From: Bacillota bacterium
GTDB taxonomy: Bacteria; Bacillota; Sulfobacillia; Sulfobacillales; Sulfobacillaceae
Direction of reading: 5' to 3'
Assembly (NCBI GenBank): GCA_021797825.1
Contig: JAJZZA010000023.1
Location: forward strand, 1-44,132
DNA: 44,132 bases
This document shows, piece by piece, positions 1,915 through 33,957 of the stretch. The translations under genes were made by a program, and so were the position numbers. The first letter of the stretch is position 1. Every line of letters starts with the position of its first letter. The notes under the pieces are model-generated. The model was not told where the DNA came from. It made no database searches and was given only the letters and a program-made list of their open reading frames with translations.

Positions 1915-2982
1915 GTGAGAATTGCAATCGACGCGATGGGCGGCGATCATGCTCCGGACTCGCCAGTGGCGGGAGCGCGTGAGGCGGTTCACGCCCATCC
2001 GTCGGTGGAAGCCATTCTGGTCGGCGACCCGAAAAGAATCGGGCGTCTGCTGGGAGAGGACGCCCATCACCCGCGGATTCGGGTGGTGCCGGCGTCGGAA
2101 GTGATTGAGATGGCGGAGTCTCCGGTCCATGCGGTGCGCAAAAAAACCGATTCGTCGATGGTGCGGGCGATTCGCCTCATCCCATCCGGGGCGGCGGACG
2201 CGGTGATTTCGGCCGGGAATACAGGGGCCTTGATGGCTGCCGGCCTCTTCATCCTAGGCCGGATGCCGGGGATCGAACGGCCCGCCTTGACCGCCATCCT
2301 GCCGGTGTTCCAGGGATGGGGCCTATTGCTGCTTGATGTCGGGGCGAACCTGGATCCGAAGCCATCCCAGATGTATCAATACGGCTTGATGGGATCGTTA
2401 TACTGTCACGAGGTGTATGGCATTGATCGACCCCGGGTCGCACTCTTAAACGTCGGGGTGGAGGCTGGCAAAGGGACCCCGCTGGTGAAGGAAACCCACC
2501 ATTTGCTTAAAAAGGACTCCCGGCTGCACTTTATCGGCAACTTGGAAGCGCGCGAACTGTTGCAGGGTAAGGCCGATGTGGTGGTGGCCGACGGATTCTC
2601 CGGCAATATCGCGCTGAAGTTGACGGAGGGATTGGCCCGGGATCTGATGGGCGAGCTTAGGGCCATGTTTTTGGCCAACTGGCGGAGCAAGCTGTCGGCG
2701 TTTTTTCTGCGGGACGGACTTCGAAGGCTAAAAGGCCTGCTGGATTACCAGGAATATGGAGGAGCCCCGTTGCTCGGTCTCGATCAGGCGCTTTACAAGT
2801 GTCATGGTTCGAGCGAGCCCAAGGCCTTTCGCCAAGCCATTCTGATTGCCGAGAAACATTGTGCGCGGGGATCGCAGGCACGGATCCGGGATCGCATTCA
2901 AGAGGGGGATTTTCATGGCCATACGGGCGGTGGTTCGGGGACTTGGGACGTACGTCCCGGAGAAAATTTTGACCAATCATGA
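1915..2982 (+). CDS. plsX: Phosphate acyltransferase PlsX
   Basis: PlsX converts acyl-ACP to acyl-phosphate, the donor used by PlsY to start phospholipid synthesis at the membrane. The N terminus MRIAIDAMGGDHAP is diagnostic, and the ISAGNTGALMAAG and DVGANLDPKP segments agree. The start is a GTG at 1915 behind GGGGGAGG (1896-1904). At 355 residues it is slightly long. Its tail overlaps fabH by 68 nt in another frame, so the last 20 or so residues are probably lineage-specific. Both genes keep intact family sequence, so a frameshift is not indicated. Confidence 0.95.
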   Translation: MRIAIDAMGGDHAPDSPVAGAREAVHAHPSVEAILVGDPKRIGRLLGEDAHHPRIRVVPASEVIEMAESPVHAVRKKTDSSMVRAIRLIPSGAADAVISAGNTGALMAAGLFILGRMPGIERPALTAILPVFQGWGLLLLDVGANLDPKPSQMYQYGLMGSLYCHEVYGIDRPRVALLNVGVEAGKGTPLVKETHHLLKKDSRLHFIGNLEARELLQGKADVVVADGFSGNIALKLTEGLARDLMGELRAMFLANWRSKLSAFFLRDGLRRLKGLLDYQEYGGAPLLGLDQALYKCHGSSEPKAFRQAILIAEKHCARGSQARIRDRIQEGDFHGHTGGGSGTWDVRPGENFDQS

Positions 2983-3907
2983 CCTCGAACGCATGATGGA
3001 CACCAGTGATGAATGGATTGTGACCCGGACCGGAATTCGTGAACGCCATATCGCATCCCCGGAGGAACCCACCTCGGTGTTGGGTTGGCGGGCCGCGCAG
3101 GCCGCGTTGGCGGATGCGGGGCTGGAGATGGACGCCATCGACTTTATTGTGGTTGCCACCAATACCGGAGACACGGTGTTCCCTTCCACGGCTTGCCGGG
3201 TGCAGTCGCAATTAACCCAGCGACCGGTGCCGAGCGTGGATGTGCAGGCCGGTTGCACGGGATGGATCTATGGCATTGCCATGGCTTCGGCCATGATTGA
3301 GAGCGGCACCTTTCGTCGAATTCTGGTCATCGCGGCGGACAAACTGTCCAGCATCACCGATTACCAGGATCGAACCACCGCCGTGTTGTTCGGCGACGCC
3401 GCCGGGGCGATTGTGCTGGAAGGGCGGCAGCAGGCGGAACATGGCGTGCTGGCCTCCTTTCTGCAAGCGGACGGCAGCGGGGGGGACCTGCTTAGCATGC
3501 CAGCGGGCGGGTCGCTACTGCCCGCCACCCATCAAACCGTGGATGAAAGGCTGCATTATCTCAAAATGAACGGCAACGACGTGTTCCGGTTTGCGGTCAA
3601 GGCGATGCCGGAAGCCATCGAGGAAGGGTTGCGGCGCGCCGGCCTGGGCGTGGACCAGATCGATCTGTTGGTTCCGCACCAAGCCAACCAAAGAATTATT
3701 GACGCGGCCATGCGCCGGTTTCACCTGGATCCCAGCCGGGTCACCAATAACATTGCGCGCTACGGGAACACGTCGGTGGCAACCATCCCCGTCGCGCTTT
3801 GGGAAGCGCGCCAAGAAGGGCGCGTAAAACCTGGGGATGTGGTGGTGCTGGTCGCCTTCGGAGCCGGTTTGACGTGGGGATCCAACGTCATCCGGTGGGG
3901 CGCGTAG
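2915..3907 (+). CDS. fabH: Beta-ketoacyl-ACP synthase III FabH
   Basis: FabH makes the first condensation of acetyl- or branched acyl-CoA with malonyl-ACP. The protein is 330 residues, normal for the family, and has the full Cys-His-Asn triad: C114 (QAGCTGW), H255 (PHQANQRI) and N285 (YGNTSVAT). The ATG at 2915 is chosen over in-frame upstream starts because the family begins here and AGAGGGGG (2901-2908) precedes it. The gene starts inside the plsX tail and is followed 6 nt later by degV. Confidence 0.97.
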   Translation: MAIRAVVRGLGTYVPEKILTNHDLERMMDTSDEWIVTRTGIRERHIASPEEPTSVLGWRAAQAALADAGLEMDAIDFIVVATNTGDTVFPSTACRVQSQLTQRPVPSVDVQAGCTGWIYGIAMASAMIESGTFRRILVIAADKLSSITDYQDRTTAVLFGDAAGAIVLEGRQQAEHGVLASFLQADGSGGDLLSMPAGGSLLPATHQTVDERLHYLKMNGNDVFRFAVKAMPEAIEEGLRRAGLGVDQIDLLVPHQANQRIIDAAMRRFHLDPSRVTNNIARYGNTSVATIPVALWEARQEGRVKPGDVVVLVAFGAGLTWGSNVIRWGA

Positions 3908-3912
3908 ATTCC

Positions 3913-4845
3913 ATGCGGATCGCGGTGGTGACGGATTCGACCGCGGATTTGGATGCGGGCTGGCTACGCCAGCATGGGGTGCGAACGGTGCCATTGACGG
4001 TGGAATGGGGCGGGGAGAGTCTTCGCGACCGGATCGATTTGACGCATGATGACTTCGTGCGCCGGTTGCAATCCTCCCGCGATCTGCCCCGCACCGCCGC
4101 TCCCGCTCCGGGGGTGTTCGCCGCTTTGTACCGGACGCTCTTGGTGGAGGAAGCCTACGACCGTATTCTGTCAATTCATATCGCGGGAAGCCTCAGTGCG
4201 ACCGTGCGCGCCGCGGAGCTGGCCGCGCGCTTGACCGATAAGGAGCGGATTACCGTCATTGACGGCCAGTCCGCGAGTCTCGGCACAGCCATTTTGGTAT
4301 GGTGGGCGGTACGGCGGACGGCGGCGGGGGCGGATCCCGCACAGATCGCGGAGGAAGTGGCGATCCTCTCCCAACGCACCGTGCTGGTGCTGGCACCGGT
4401 GACTTTGGAGTATCTGGCCCGTGGCGGCCGAATTGGCCAGGCGGCGCATCTGGTCGGCAAGCTGCTCAATATGACGCCGATTTTGGAACTGGATCACGCC
4501 ACCATCCGGCCGGTGCGCAAGGTCCGCGGAGAACGCCAGATGGTGCCGGCGATTTTGCAGCAGATCCGGCTTAAGGTGCCCGAAAACAGCCCGGTGCTGG
4601 CGGCGTTGTCGCAAAGCCAAAATGCGCTCGCGGTCAAGGAGCTGGAGGCGGGCTTGCGGGCTTCCTACCGGCTGGCAGGTCTGTTACAAGGGACAATCGG
4701 CCCGGTGATTGCCACCCATGTTGGGCCTGGCGCCTATGGCGCCATCGTCTGTCCGCTCACCCCGCAGGATTTAGCTAAGTGGCAGTTGGGGGACGACGCG
4801 CCGGATTCGCCGCCCGCGACGGGCCCGCGAAGAGAGGATGGATAA
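3913..4845 (+). CDS. DegV family fatty-acid-binding protein (FakB-like)
   Basis: This 310-residue DegV protein starts MRIAVVTDSTADL and carries the family's RGGRIGQAAHLVGKLLNMTPIL segment in two overlapping halves (ARGGRIG, then LLNMTPIL). DegV/FakB proteins bind a single fatty acid; FakB presents it to the kinase FakA, giving acyl-phosphate, the same intermediate PlsX makes. It lies between fabH and fabD, 6 nt after fabH and 2 nt before fabD, so it is clearly co-transcribed with lipid genes. No FakA kinase is in the window. The role in lipid metabolism is inferred from context. Confidence 0.88.
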   Translation: MRIAVVTDSTADLDAGWLRQHGVRTVPLTVEWGGESLRDRIDLTHDDFVRRLQSSRDLPRTAAPAPGVFAALYRTLLVEEAYDRILSIHIAGSLSATVRAAELAARLTDKERITVIDGQSASLGTAILVWWAVRRTAAGADPAQIAEEVAILSQRTVLVLAPVTLEYLARGGRIGQAAHLVGKLLNMTPILELDHATIRPVRKVRGERQMVPAILQQIRLKVPENSPVLAALSQSQNALAVKELEAGLRASYRLAGLLQGTIGPVIATHVGPGAYGAIVCPLTPQDLAKWQLGDDAPDSPPATGPRREDG

Positions 4846-17256: not shown

Positions 17257-18192
17257 ATGGCAGGATTTTGGGAACGGTTGAAAAACGGGATGACCCGAAC
17301 CCGGTCGGGATTTGGCGACAGGATTCGCGGCCTGGTCATGGGGCGCGAGTGGAGTGAGGATTTATGGGACGAACTGGAGGCCATCTTGTATGAAGCCGAT
17401 CTCGGGCCGGAGGTGGTGGAGATCCTGCTTGGCCGATTACGCAGCCGCTTGCGACATGAACGCGCCCGCACCGCCGAGGAGGTGCTGACGGTCCTGCGAA
17501 CCGTCATGGCGGAGATGCTGGCGGTCGGGGACACCGAACGGCGGGATCCGTACCAGCTTACCTCAGACGGGCCGGAAGTGTGGATGCTGGTTGGGGTCAA
17601 CGGAACCGGAAAAACCACGACCGCCGGAAAGTTGGCGCGGCAAATGTCCCAAAGGGGCCACCGCGTGGTGTTGGGAGCCGGCGACACGTTCCGTGCTGCG
17701 GCGATTGAACAACTGCAGGAGTGGGGAATCCGCGCCGGAGTGGAGGTCGTGCACCAAAGCCCCGGGGCGGACCCGGCGGCGGTCGCATTTGATACGGTGC
17801 GGGCAGCGGGGGCCCGCCATTTGGACCTGGCTCTGATTGATACCGCGGGCCGTCTGCACAACAAGGCCCACCTGATGGAAGAGCTGAAAAAAGTGGTGCG
17901 CGTGATCAGGCGAGAAAATCCTGGGGCGCCGCATGAAGTCTTGTTGGTGATCGACGCGACCACCGGCCAAAACGGCCTGACTCAGGCGGCGGTGTTTACC
18001 GAGGCGGTACAAGTGACCGGAATAGTCTTGACGAAACTGGACGGAACGGCCAAGGGCGGGGTGGCGTTGGCCATTGCCCACCACCTGCAACTGCCGATCC
18101 GGTTTGTGGGAGTAGGGGAATCGGCCGACGACTTGCTGGTCTTCGACCCGGACTCGTATCTTCAGGCAATCCTCGGGGAACTGCACGGGTGA
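17257..18192 (+). CDS. ftsY: Signal recognition particle receptor FtsY
   Basis: FtsY is the membrane-associated GTPase that receives ribosome-SRP complexes. The 311-residue protein has the helical N domain (1-90), then the G domain with GVNGTGKTTTAGKLA at about 112, DTAGRLHNK at about 194 and TKLDGTAKGG at about 258. It lacks the long acidic A domain of E. coli, as usual in Gram-positives. AGGAGG overlaps the smc stop codon. In relatives ylxM-ffh follow directly; here about 5 kb of accessory DNA separates them. Confidence 0.97.
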   Translation: MAGFWERLKNGMTRTRSGFGDRIRGLVMGREWSEDLWDELEAILYEADLGPEVVEILLGRLRSRLRHERARTAEEVLTVLRTVMAEMLAVGDTERRDPYQLTSDGPEVWMLVGVNGTGKTTTAGKLARQMSQRGHRVVLGAGDTFRAAAIEQLQEWGIRAGVEVVHQSPGADPAAVAFDTVRAAGARHLDLALIDTAGRLHNKAHLMEELKKVVRVIRRENPGAPHEVLLVIDATTGQNGLTQAAVFTEAVQVTGIVLTKLDGTAKGGVALAIAHHLQLPIRFVGVGESADDLLVFDPDSYLQAILGELHG

Positions 18193-18197
18193 ACCGG

Positions 18198-18226
18198 TTG
18201 CAACCCGCCGCGGCCCGCCGTATACT
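18198..18226 (+). promoter_or_regulatory. Promoter of the c-di-AMP riboswitch transcript
   Basis: TTGCAA (18198-18203), 17-nt spacer, TATACT (18221-18226). The predicted transcript start at about 18233 coincides with the first base of the riboswitch P1 stem. Confidence 0.75.
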
Positions 18227-18232
18227 GGAAGT

Positions 18233-18356
18233 ACCTTGAAAACGCCGAGTTCGCAAGGAGCGGAGGATCCAGTCTTGTGGGGTGAATTGCGTAAGCAAGG
18301 GGCAGTCCACGGCCCTAACCCGTCAGCTAACTTCGTAGGCGTTGGGGGCTCAAGGT
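18233..18356 (+). promoter_or_regulatory. Cyclic di-AMP riboswitch (ydaO/yuaA class)
   Basis: The conserved ydaO core is readable in order: CGCCGAGTT, GGAGCGGAGGATCC (18257-18270), GGGGTGAAT (18279-18287), and ACCCGTCAGCTAAC followed by TTCGTAGGCG (18318-18341). The closing helix is perfect: ACCTTGA (18233-18239) with TCAAGGT (18350-18356), plus ACGCC (18242-18246) with GGCGT (18338-18342). ydaO RNAs bind c-di-AMP and usually turn transcription off. A terminator follows at 18380, and the G-run at 18344-18348 could pair with its C-run as an antiterminator. It controls the glycosyltransferase/phosphatase pair downstream. Confidence 0.9.
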
Positions 18357-18379
18357 GAACACCAATTCAACTCCTCTCC

Positions 18380-18402
18380 CCCAGGGTGCCCTGGGTTTTT
18401 GT
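18380..18402 (+). terminator. Riboswitch-controlled terminator
   Basis: Stem CCCAGG (18380-18385) / CCTGGG (18390-18395) with a GTGC loop, followed by TTTTTGT. It lies 24 nt after the aptamer and 30 nt before the start codon, the standard place for a transcriptional expression platform. Confidence 0.85.
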
Positions 18403-18431
18403 GGCCAGGGCGATGGGAGGCTTTGTCGTTC

Positions 18432-19655
18432 ATGGTTCGGCGCGTCTTACAACTTTCGTTGCAGGCCGATCCCCTTAATCTGCTTGATGGCGGGGACGTT
18501 GGCGGCCAACAAATTTTTGTTCGCAAAGTGGCGCGGTATATTCAATTCCAAGGCTACGGAACCGACGTGGTTACCGTCCGGCGCAGTCCCGAGGCCCCGG
18601 TCCGTTTTAGCCTGGGCCATTTAGGGCAAGTCCTCCGGATGGATCTGCCGCTCGTGCCCGTTAGCGACGAGGGATGGGCGGCATCCGCCCCCGAACTGGC
18701 CGCGCGGGCGTTGGCGCTGATCCGTCAAGAAGGCCGCGCTTACCAGATGATTCACTCCCATTATTGGATATCCGGGCTGGTGGCGGAGCAACTGGCGGCG
18801 GAGTTGGGGATTCCCTGGATTCATACCCCGTACAAACTGGCCCAGTGGGTCGCCCGCACCGGCGACGTCATTTCCCCGGTTCGCGCCGCAGCTGAACGGA
18901 AAATTTTGAACCAGGCGGACGCGGTGGTGGTGTCCTATCTGGGCGAGGGCGATCTCATTCGTCGCCTGTCACCGGATGTCACGATTTATGTGGTCCCTCC
19001 GGGGGTCGAACCGACCCAGTTTTTCAGCCGCGATGCGGGTCCGGTATTAAAGCGGCTAAATCTTCCGCGCAGACCCGCCATCTATGTGGGGCGTCTGGCC
19101 GCAGGCCGTGGACTCGAGGGCCTCTTGAGCACACTGGGTGAGATTCGGCTGCCGGACGAATTTCGTTTCTTGGTGGTCGGAGGCAATTCCGGTGAAGTCG
19201 AGCAGGGCCGTCCCCAAGACGCGCGTCTTAAAGCACTGCGCGATCGGCTCGGACCACATGTGGAGTTTTTGGGAGCGATGCCGCATCGCGCAGTCGCTCC
19301 GTTTCTGGCGGCGTCGTCGGTGATGGCGGCCCCCAACCAGGGACCTACGCTCGGAATGGCGGTGCTGGAAGGGATGGCGTCGGGGTTGCCGGTGGTGGGG
19401 ACCGCCGTGACCGGCATTCAGGACTGGATTGCCGACGGGACCGACGGGGTGGTGGTGGCCCCCGGCCGGCTGGATTTGATGGCCGAAGCCCTATTGCGGC
19501 TTTGGAGTGACACCGCCCGGGCCCGTCGGATGGGCACGGCGGGACAAAACCGAATTCATCGGCACTATACCGGGGAAAAAATGGGGAGCCAGTTGGCTCG
19601 AGTCTACCGGGAGGTGATGGGACATGAGCGGCATTCGGCGGGTTCTGGCTACTGA
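18432..19655 (+). CDS. Sucrose-phosphate-synthase-like glycosyltransferase (GT4)
   Basis: This 407-residue GT-B enzyme opens with the donor/acceptor loop DGGDVGGQQIFVRKV, the form seen in sucrose- and related disaccharide-phosphate synthases. It continues with HSHYWISG, PPGVEPTQF, a GRLAAGRGLEGLL segment, and the GT4 motif with conserved Glu in LEGMASGLPVVGT. The ATG at 18432 follows GGGAGG (18415-18420). The next gene, a sucrose-phosphatase-like HAD, overlaps its end by 32 nt, forming a complete two-step disaccharide pathway. A c-di-AMP riboswitch in front fits osmolyte synthesis. The product could instead be mannosylfructose or a glucosyl compound. Confidence 0.82.
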   Translation: MVRRVLQLSLQADPLNLLDGGDVGGQQIFVRKVARYIQFQGYGTDVVTVRRSPEAPVRFSLGHLGQVLRMDLPLVPVSDEGWAASAPELAARALALIRQEGRAYQMIHSHYWISGLVAEQLAAELGIPWIHTPYKLAQWVARTGDVISPVRAAAERKILNQADAVVVSYLGEGDLIRRLSPDVTIYVVPPGVEPTQFFSRDAGPVLKRLNLPRRPAIYVGRLAAGRGLEGLLSTLGEIRLPDEFRFLVVGGNSGEVEQGRPQDARLKALRDRLGPHVEFLGAMPHRAVAPFLAASSVMAAPNQGPTLGMAVLEGMASGLPVVGTAVTGIQDWIADGTDGVVVAPGRLDLMAEALLRLWSDTARARRMGTAGQNRIHRHYTGEKMGSQLARVYREVMGHERHSAGSGY

Positions 19656-20379
19656 TATCGATGGCACCCTGGTGGGATTTGGCGGGGAAAACGATTTGGC
19701 CGACTATTTGGCGCGTCGTTCGGACATCGGAGTCATCTACCTGACCGGGCGCACCCGCCACAATGCGGAAGGGTTGATTCATCGCCACAACCTGCCGGGG
19801 CCGGTGGCACTTGTGACCGATACCGGGGCGGAGGTCTACTGGGGCCGAGAGTTGCGGGCGGATGACCGGTGGGCGTTTCAGCAGCGCAAGGATTGGTCAC
19901 CGCGCCGGGTACAGGATGCCTTGACTTCCGTGCCCGGGGTGTCGTACGCGGGCCGTAGTTCACACTGGCGCTTGGCCTATCGGGTAGAGAGCGAGGACGG
20001 GCTGTCGAGCGCGCGGACCCATCTGATCCGGGCGGGCGTGCCTGCGCGGACGTTGTGGGATCCAGCCGATGGCCGTCTCGATGTGATTCCGCGAGGAGCG
20101 CTAAAAGGGCGCGCGCTGCGTTACGTGTTGCAAAACCTGCGGATTACAGCGCATCATTGTTTCGTGGCGGGGGATGCCGAAAATGACAGCGACATGCTGC
20201 AGGGCCGCTATCAGGGGGTGTTGGTGGCCAACGGCTCGGCGGAACTGACCCTGCATCTTTCGGACCGCATTTATCGAGCCAACTATCCCGGGGCGCAAGG
20301 CGTCTTAGAAGGCCTGCGGCGCTGGCTCAAGGATGATGCCGCGCGACCATTGGCGTCGCCTCCGGGCTTTGTCTCGTAG
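19624..20379 (+). CDS. Sucrose-phosphatase-like HAD phosphatase
   Basis: This 251-residue HAD (Cof/SPP type) enzyme has the nucleophile motif DIDGTLVG (D11, D13) and the motif II threonine region YLTGRT. The lysine segment PRGALKGRAL and motif GDAENDSDML come next. These are arranged as in sucrose-6-phosphate and mannosyl-3-phosphoglycerate phosphatases. It overlaps the glycosyltransferase by 32 nt, so translation is probably coupled. Expected job: remove phosphate from the disaccharide-phosphate made by the upstream enzyme, pulling the reaction forward. Confidence 0.83.
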   Translation: MSGIRRVLATDIDGTLVGFGGENDLADYLARRSDIGVIYLTGRTRHNAEGLIHRHNLPGPVALVTDTGAEVYWGRELRADDRWAFQQRKDWSPRRVQDALTSVPGVSYAGRSSHWRLAYRVESEDGLSSARTHLIRAGVPARTLWDPADGRLDVIPRGALKGRALRYVLQNLRITAHHCFVAGDAENDSDMLQGRYQGVLVANGSAELTLHLSDRIYRANYPGAQGVLEGLRRWLKDDAARPLASPPGFVS

Positions 20380-32662: not shown

Positions 32663-33808
32663 TTACGGATTCACGCGTCCCGCTCCCACGAAGTGGGATT
32701 GCCAGTAGGGGGCGTTGAAATTCATGATCATCACCCGCTGTCCCGGTGCCGGGGCGTCAATGAAGGCTTGACTATACCCCTGGGCGGGGTCGGCTCCGAT
32801 ATATATCCCCACATGGCTGGCCCCCGCCCCGTACGTGGAAAAGAACACCAAGTCTCCAGGCTGCAGCGCGGAGCGGGGAATCTTGGTCACCGCGGCGAAC
32901 TGGGCCCACGACGTGCGGGGGAGGGAGACCCCGTTTTGGGCAAACACATATTGCACGAGCCCCGAACAGTCAAAGCCGGCCGGACTGGCCCCACCCCAGA
33001 CATAGGGATCGCCCAGGTAACGCCGGGCAGTGGCCGCAATCGCCGCACCGAAAGTCTGGCTGGGGGCGTTGGCCGGCAGACTGACGCTGGCGGAGCCGCT
33101 GCCCGCCTGTTTAGCCGGGATCGATGGCGCTGAGGCCGGGGAGCCGGGAATCATCAGCACCTGGCCCACATGAAGCCAATTCGGGTTGGCCAGATGGTTG
33201 ACGGCGGCCAAGGTAGGCCACGCGATTCCGAAACGGGCGGCAATTTGGCTTAAGGTATCGCCCGGTCGCACCACGTAGCGGCCGGCACCCGCTGGGTTTG
33301 AGGATCGCACCGCTGCCGACGCAGCCGCGGCAGGGCTGCCCTGTGCGGGCAGCAACAAGACTTGGCCGATTTGCAGCCAATTCGGGTTGGCCAAATGGTT
33401 AAGCGCCGCCAGCGTCGCCACCGACGTGTGAAATCGGCTGGCAATGCCTCCCAAGGTATTTCCGGCTTGCACTGTGTAACGCGTGGCGGTAGGTGATGAG
33501 GAGGGGGCTGCAGTGGCGTTAAGCGAGCGGTTCAGCGCGGATTCGGTTTCCGGGCCGACGATGCCGTCGGTGGCCAAACCGTGTTTGGCTTGGAAAGTTT
33601 TTACGGCAGCTTCCGTCACAGGGCCAAAATATCCGGTGGGAGCAATATGGTAACCGAGATGATCCAAGTCGGTTTGGAGCAGGCGAACCATCGCACCGGA
33701 CTGGCCTGGGCTCCAGTATCCGGTCACCGTGGCGGCATGCGCCAGCGGTCCGGCCCAGAGCGCCGCCGAGGCGGCAGCGGCCGTAAGGGTTGTCCATGTT
33801 TTCGGCAA
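32663..33808 (-). CDS. Secreted NlpC/P60 peptidoglycan hydrolase with LysM repeats
   Basis: This 381-residue endopeptidase cuts stem peptides of peptidoglycan. In order it has a signal peptide (cleavage likely after A23-H-A25), a peptidoglycan-binding-1 domain (about 34-95) and two LysM modules (about 110-155 and 177-222). The LysMs are almost identical in the LNHLANPNWLQIGQVLLLP part. A NlpC/P60 domain follows, with C281 (GFDCSGLVQYVF) and H332 (SHVGIYIG). The start is TTG at 33808 behind AAGGAAGGGAG. It is preceded by a c-di-AMP riboswitch, as known for several wall hydrolases. Confidence 0.93.
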   Translation of the reverse strand: MPKTWTTLTAAAASAALWAGPLAHAATVTGYWSPGQSGAMVRLLQTDLDHLGYHIAPTGYFGPVTEAAVKTFQAKHGLATDGIVGPETESALNRSLNATAAPSSSPTATRYTVQAGNTLGGIASRFHTSVATLAALNHLANPNWLQIGQVLLLPAQGSPAAAASAAVRSSNPAGAGRYVVRPGDTLSQIAARFGIAWPTLAAVNHLANPNWLHVGQVLMIPGSPASAPSIPAKQAGSGSASVSLPANAPSQTFGAAIAATARRYLGDPYVWGGASPAGFDCSGLVQYVFAQNGVSLPRTSWAQFAAVTKIPRSALQPGDLVFFSTYGAGASHVGIYIGADPAQGYSQAFIDAPAPGQRVMIMNFNAPYWQSHFVGAGRVNP

Positions 33809-33831
33809 GAGACAGGCTCCCTTCCTTCAGG

Positions 33832-33957
33832 TATTGCCTCCGAGGTTAGTTGGCGGCTCGGGCTGAAGGAGCCCTACGGGGGTAACCCGATTCACCATGG
33901 GCCAAGCCCATTAATCCCCCGTACGCGCGTTTGGGCGTGATTCGGCAGACAGGAGTC
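33832..33957 (-). promoter_or_regulatory. Cyclic di-AMP riboswitch (ydaO/yuaA class), second copy
   Basis: Read on the - strand, the ydaO core appears in order: GCCGAATC (from 33946), GGGGGATTAATGGG (33920-33907), GGTGAATC (33896-33889), AGGGCTCC, CCCGAGCC and CAACTAACCTCGGAGGC (33852-33836). The conserved blocks match the copy at 18233. No terminator lies between it and the gene. The ribosome site (33827-33817) abuts the 3' side of the aptamer, and CTCCT near the RNA 5' end could pair with it, so control is more likely translational. That last point is inference. Confidence 0.85.

Follow-up and report, generated by a model that had tools for sequence, protein, structure and literature searches.

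A conserved c-di-AMP riboswitch precedes a putative glycoside osmolyte operon in the Sulfobacillaceae

A c-di-AMP riboswitch stands directly before a two-gene operon in the window analysed here, the 44,132-nucleotide contig JAJZZA010000023.1 from a member of the Sulfobacillaceae (assembly GCA_021797825.1; 3.59 Mb in 156 contigs). The best reading of this arrangement is a transcriptional OFF switch that would allow a two-step phospho-glycoside pathway to operate when c-di-AMP is low. We consider it probable that the operon serves synthesis and dephosphorylation of a phospho-glycoside under c-di-AMP-responsive control, most likely yielding sucrose or a sucrose-like compatible solute. The response to the ligand and the direction of control are those that we infer from the riboswitch family. 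One diadenylate cyclase domain was detected in the genome (PF02457, 141.5 bits). All of the elements named in the original prediction (promoter, aptamer, G-run, terminator, and two enzymes) were found within a few bases of where it had placed them.

The operon consists of a 407-amino-acid GT4 glycosyltransferase (positions 18432-19655, forward strand), identified by its open reading frame, profile, and fold, and a 251-amino-acid HAD-IIB phosphatase of the sucrose-phosphate phosphatase (S6PP) family (19624-20379, forward strand), identified by its open reading frame and profile. The end of the transferase gene overlaps the start of the phosphatase gene by 32 nt, and all 20 orthologous pairs that were measured have the same overlap. 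Among 34 Sulfobacillaceae genomes, the named relatives including Sulfobacillus harzensis, S. thermotolerans Kr1, and metagenome-assembled genomes labelled S. acidophilus and S. benefaciens, the phosphatase is present in 24 (at 270 bits or more). The switch-gene pair noticed originally in a single genome recurs in every one of these: RF00379 lies about 1.3 kb 5' of the phosphatase on the same strand, and only one 1.2-kb gene, the GT4 transferase, lies between them (24/24). Identity to the window's proteins is 48-54% for the transferase orthologs and 49-62% for the phosphatases, and the leader promoter, aptamer, GGGGGC, and CCCC elements are kept despite this protein divergence. Most of the loci adjoin ftsY and/or ffh, a single chromosomal place; the 24 pairs are therefore largely one inherited arrangement, not independent events. 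The ten genomes that lack the phosphatase come mainly from genera g2, g5, and g11 and retain other copies of RF00379.

The aptamer (ydaO/yuaA class, RF00379; 18233-18356, forward strand) matched the Rfam covariance model over its full length (model positions 1-134) in a search of the window, with a score of 83.7 bits (E 3.6e-18) that is well above the cut-off of 38, and it is the best-scoring of the genome's five RF00379 copies. Direct reading places helix P1 at AACGCC (18241-18246) and GGCGUU (18338-18343), outside which CCUUGA (18234-18239) can pair with UCAAGG (18350-18355) in an outer closing helix, P0 (18234-18355, forward strand). Both strands of the outer helix occur in 18 of the 24 orthologous leaders as counted by script, and by eye in L009 too; the five leaders from genera g3, g4, and g6 have neither. 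The riboswitch is an ordinary member of its class. A sigma-70-like promoter (18198-18226, forward strand; 9 of 12 matches) is formed by the -35 element TTGCAA (18198-18203), a 17-nt spacer, and the -10 element TATACT (18221-18226). The ftsY stop codon ends at 18192, and the -35 element starts 6 nt downstream of that base. The position of the promoter sets the expected transcript start at approximately the first bases of the aptamer, as originally proposed. Pattern scans alone recover promoters (2 found versus 1.2 expected) and terminators (6 versus 4.3) at chance level, and it is conservation across orthologous leaders that lifts both elements above chance. The promoter pattern TT....-16/18-TAT[AT].T precedes the aptamer in 24 of 24 leaders.

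Downstream of the aptamer, pattern scanning and conservation identify an intrinsic terminator-like hairpin, CCCAGGGTGCCCTGGG followed by TTTTT (18380-18400, forward strand). The terminator 5' arm is overlapped by a predicted antiterminator (18342-18384, forward strand) in which UUGGGGG (18342-18348) pairs with CCCCCAG (18378-18384); the G-run GGGGG is read at 18344-18348 and the C-run CCCCC at 18378-18382, both on the forward strand. This antiterminator is both the minimum free energy and the centroid fold of the post-aptamer leader (18336-18431). A Shine-Dalgarno-like GGGAGG (18415-18420, forward strand) lies 11 nt 5' of the ATG at 18432, and GGAGG or GAGGGAGG occupies the same site in most orthologs. 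The GGGGGC element and the CCCC stretch of the terminator arm are invariant in all 24 leaders, and the hairpin with a U-rich tail is found in 23, L018 being without the U run. In the g3, g4, and g6 leaders (n=5) both strands are altered yet still pair (GGGGGCAAAGG with CCUUU..GCUCCCC). The antiterminator-capable G-run and terminator of the original prediction are present and conserved across the family; 3' of the aptamer, the hairpin overlaps the pairing partner of the G-run, so that terminator and antiterminator are mutually exclusive, in the layout of an OFF riboswitch. The energy of the antiterminator pairing does not exceed that of dinucleotide shuffles: in the median leader, 58% of them reach an equal or stronger pairing, as the C-richness of the leader is itself sufficient to produce it. 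In 16 of the 24 leaders, folding without ligand is predicted to favour the terminator state over the antiterminator state. The case for the expression platform is therefore based on conservation and not on energy.

In the mechanism that we propose, P1 and the outer CCUUGA/UCAAGG helix should be held together by the ligand when c-di-AMP is high, which signifies no osmotic distress. The adjacent G-run would then be unavailable to the antiterminator, and the CCCAGGG hairpin would terminate transcription. As c-di-AMP falls, pairing between the G-run and the C-run in the terminator arm would let RNA polymerase read on into the operon. The GT4 enzyme would then couple a nucleotide sugar with a phosphosugar as acceptor, and the translationally overlapped phosphatase would take the phosphate off.

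The assignment of the second enzyme as sucrose-phosphatase-like held up. It scores 146.2 bits against PF05116 (Pfam gathering threshold 20.3), placing it in the S6PP family, and its catalytic site appears intact. The HAD motif I-IV residues D11, D13, T41, K161, N187, and D188 are invariant in 23 aligned family members and in all reference SPPs; some orthologs carry Asn in place of the motif IV residue D184. Also kept are T41-G42-R43, D80, W83, W91, and D153, which are common to the Synechocystis SPP and eight other SPPs. The scores fall under the NCBIfam equivalog cut-offs for SPP (TIGR01485, 82.4 versus 183.65; TIGR02471, 126.7 versus 209.75).

The transferase is less conventional. By sequence profile its nearest solved relative is the Thermosynechococcus SPS, TeSPS (6kih; 191 bits versus 145 for MshA), while a comparison using its AlphaFold2 model (mean pLDDT 89.4) is a tie between TeSPS (Z 46.4, 386 residues aligned, 2.2 A) and MshA (Z 46.4, 379 residues aligned, 2.1 A). 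With TeSPS and the Synechocystis SPP (1s2o), the operon shares the gene pair, the fold, the phosphatase residues, and the transferase GG[QH] loop and HS[HY][YF]WxSG motif. It differs from TeSPS at several active-site positions. The window's transferase reads H131-T-P-Y-K135, has R226 in place of Lys, and has N302-Q-G-P-T-L-G in place of E-x-F-G. Across all 24 orthologs the first Glu of EX7E is absent (Pro or Ala is found there) and NQG[PA]TLG replaces E-x-F-G; Lys stands at the Ser position of HSLG (P-[YVHI]-K); and the Lys of VGR..xKG has given way to R, I, or V. The His of HSLG is changed to Tyr, Val, or Ile in 23 of them and is kept only in L009. These missing residues are retained in TeSPS and in the SPP-linked SPSs of other families in the phylum, and E-x-F-G is also present in MshA. 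Loss of the first Glu of EX7E, which in GT4 enzymes is in contact with the donor sugar, combined with near-complete conservation of the replacement, suggests an active site that has been remodelled rather than one that has decayed.

Family models and phylogeny also set the transferase apart. Its score is far under the NCBIfam SPS cut-off (TIGR02472, 66.8 versus 576), a weak comparison that lacks scores for short TeSPS-type enzymes. It is likewise below the cut-off for MshA (TIGR03449, 142.9 versus 462.5), the D-inositol-3-phosphate GlcNAc transferase; MshA resembles it in being a GT4 enzyme with a phosphorylated acceptor and an equal fold match, but here the partner phosphatase is of the SPP type. 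In a tree with a midpoint root only, the transferase appears on a long branch of its own, apart from the group of TeSPS and canonical SPSs. Since the active-site residues of SPP-linked SPSs are missing, we call it an SPS-like GT4 enzyme and do not file it as an SPS. The original description as sucrose-phosphate-synthase-like stands for the fold and the nearest sequence relative and is weakened by the active-site residues and the branch position. Sucrose as the product is thus only half supported, and the product may be another glycoside.

The direct pairing of switch and operon was compared with 398 genomes of the phylum, in which 13 outside the Sulfobacillaceae have a strong S6PP match. In three genomes from three families (G133, G103, and G485), canonical SPS-SPP genes come directly after the operon for an OpuC-type glycine-betaine transporter and share its strand; the OpuAC domain and proV-subfamily ATPase were recognized by profile in G133 and G103 and by similarity only in G485. 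In G133 (locus L087, contig C1, 1750-8070, reverse strand), RF00379 (96.3 bits) is followed by a gap of approximately 800 nt, the betaine importer operon, and the canonical SPS-SPP pair, so that the opu genes and the long gap separate the riboswitch from the SPP 5.5 kb away. Read by eye, the gap looks like the remnant of an IS110-type transposase or insertion sequence. The pairs of the two further families, at L092 (598-6332, forward strand) and L115 (1798-6705, reverse strand), are likewise canonical and directly 3' of OpuC-type betaine genes, and RF00379 is not in either stretch. None of the other 12 of the 13 outside genomes has RF00379 near SPS-SPP, the pair of G194 being at a contig edge where the upstream side is not visible. 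Within the 398-genome sample, the direct switch-pair arrangement is a Sulfobacillaceae trait. An osmolyte role gains support because SPS-SPP genes follow a betaine importer in three other families, once behind RF00379. Together with the riboswitch class and the SPP-type phosphatase, this leaves the osmolyte pathway of the original prediction plausible but unproven. The literature examined on Sulfobacillus and sucrose or compatible solutes did not settle which solute the family uses.

RF00379 also occurs at other loci. A second copy in the window (58 bits; 33820-33947, reverse strand) precedes a peptidoglycan-binding/LysM/NlpC-P60 cell-wall peptidase (32663-33808, reverse strand). Elsewhere in the same genome, at L002 (707-1645, reverse strand) and L005 (1501-2881, forward strand), it precedes proteins that by eye contain peptidoglycan-binding-like repeats, the L005 copy being at the gathering threshold (38.1 bits). 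In five genomes RF00379 (71.7-85.4 bits) lies directly 5' of comA (phosphosulfolactate synthase, PF02679). One of these loci belongs to the window's own genome (L101, contig C97 of G000, 2504-4822, reverse strand), and the others are L097, L098, L099, and L100. In the window's genome and L100, comA is followed by genes for a D-2-hydroxyacid dehydrogenase and aspartate decarboxylase (panD), and this copy is the only panD found in the window's genome. The SPS-SPP pair is absent from three of these genomes (G006, G030, and G031). A c-di-AMP-controlled sulfonate solute pathway, leading to sulfolactate or to taurine via cysteate, is possible from this gene order; a literature search found no precedent for one.

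Several other explanations of the operon have to be weighed. The same switch and operon logic could serve a product other than sucrose, and we give this a substantial, if somewhat less than even, chance. The divergent GT4 enzyme would make another phospho-glycoside, for example of the mannosyl-fructose, glucosyl-glycerate, or GlcNAc-inositol type, and the SPP-like phosphatase would finish it. The substitutions in the transferase (NQG[PA]TLG in 24/24, the HSLG His lost in 23/24, the VGR..xKG Lys replaced) argue for such a product, as the altered segment hardly varies across the family and so looks selected rather than decayed. The long branch outside the SPS group is in line with this, and MshA fits equally well by structure and better by NCBIfam score (142.9). 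However, the partner phosphatase is closest to SPPs, keeping the D80, W83, W91, and D153 common to all of them, and TeSPS outscores MshA by sequence profile.

A role in the cell envelope, with the GT4-phosphatase pair supplying a wall, capsule, or lipid glycoside behind a genuine riboswitch, appears unlikely. Soluble synthase/phosphatase pairs of the SPS-SPP kind are generally known to produce free solutes, the operon is without a transporter, lipid carrier, or polymerase gene, and SPS-SPP pairs elsewhere adjoin betaine importers. Weighing on the other side are the LysM-NlpC/P60 peptidase behind the window's second RF00379, the two further genomic copies before proteins that read like peptidoglycan-binding ones, and the predominant use of this riboswitch class for cell-wall genes in Actinobacteria (PMC9960051). 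Slightly less probable still is a switch that is inverted, with c-di-AMP raising expression, or translational, with the Shine-Dalgarno GAGGG masked by a CCCUC located before the terminator. Complementarity between CCCUC and GAGGG around the terminator exists in many leaders, and a translational c-di-AMP riboswitch has been proposed in Corynebacterium (PMC9960051), but the hairpin and U-rich tail between aptamer and Shine-Dalgarno sequence in 23/24 leaders form a transcriptional layout, and the transcriptional ydaO switches described in the literature examined are OFF switches (e.g., PMC6488665, PMC9337991).

The original prediction held that direct control of the pathway would tie c-di-AMP to solute synthesis itself; such a tie has precedent. 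Control of ablA (lysine-2,3-aminomutase, for beta-lysine) in Dehalobacter sp. CF by a c-di-AMP riboswitch was shown in vitro (PMC9337991), and a review counts "synthesis and transport of osmoprotectants" among the targets of these riboswitches (PMC7288161); control of osmolyte synthesis by the RF00379 class is therefore already known. As here, the ablA switch shuts off an osmolyte-synthesis gene by termination, and the 3' shoulder of its aptamer can pair with the left arm of the terminator. That system, however, makes an amino-acid osmolyte and has its aptamer in tandem with a Na+ aptamer, whereas the operon described here is of sugar type and has a lone aptamer, which is conserved across the greater part of the family. 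An RF00379 aptamer, a downstream terminator, and the expected OFF logic are also shared with kimA of Bacillus subtilis and with kdpFABC of Bacillus thuringiensis, for which the OFF layout was shown experimentally (PMC6488665), but those switches control K+ importers rather than a two-gene glycoside-synthesis operon. Our literature search, which did not reach the gene lists of Nelson 2013 and Block 2010, found no report of a c-di-AMP riboswitch with a sucrose or sugar-type pathway.

c-di-AMP is known mainly for shutting down uptake of K+ and osmolytes, and beta-lysine is the one osmolyte for which the literature examined documents synthesis under riboswitch control. If the present reading is true, family-wide control of a sugar-type solute by a single aptamer would mean that solute synthesis in acidophiles is set by c-di-AMP; the osmoprotection of these organisms is of importance to bioleaching. 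More tentatively, c-di-AMP might switch a glycoside osmolyte through a remodelled GT4 enzyme in a pathway specific to acidophilic Sulfobacillaceae, which with the RF00379-comA loci would form a set of solute-synthesis routes. The switch and operon make a compact pair, and the altered GT4 active site offers a tangible starting point towards what may be a new solute.
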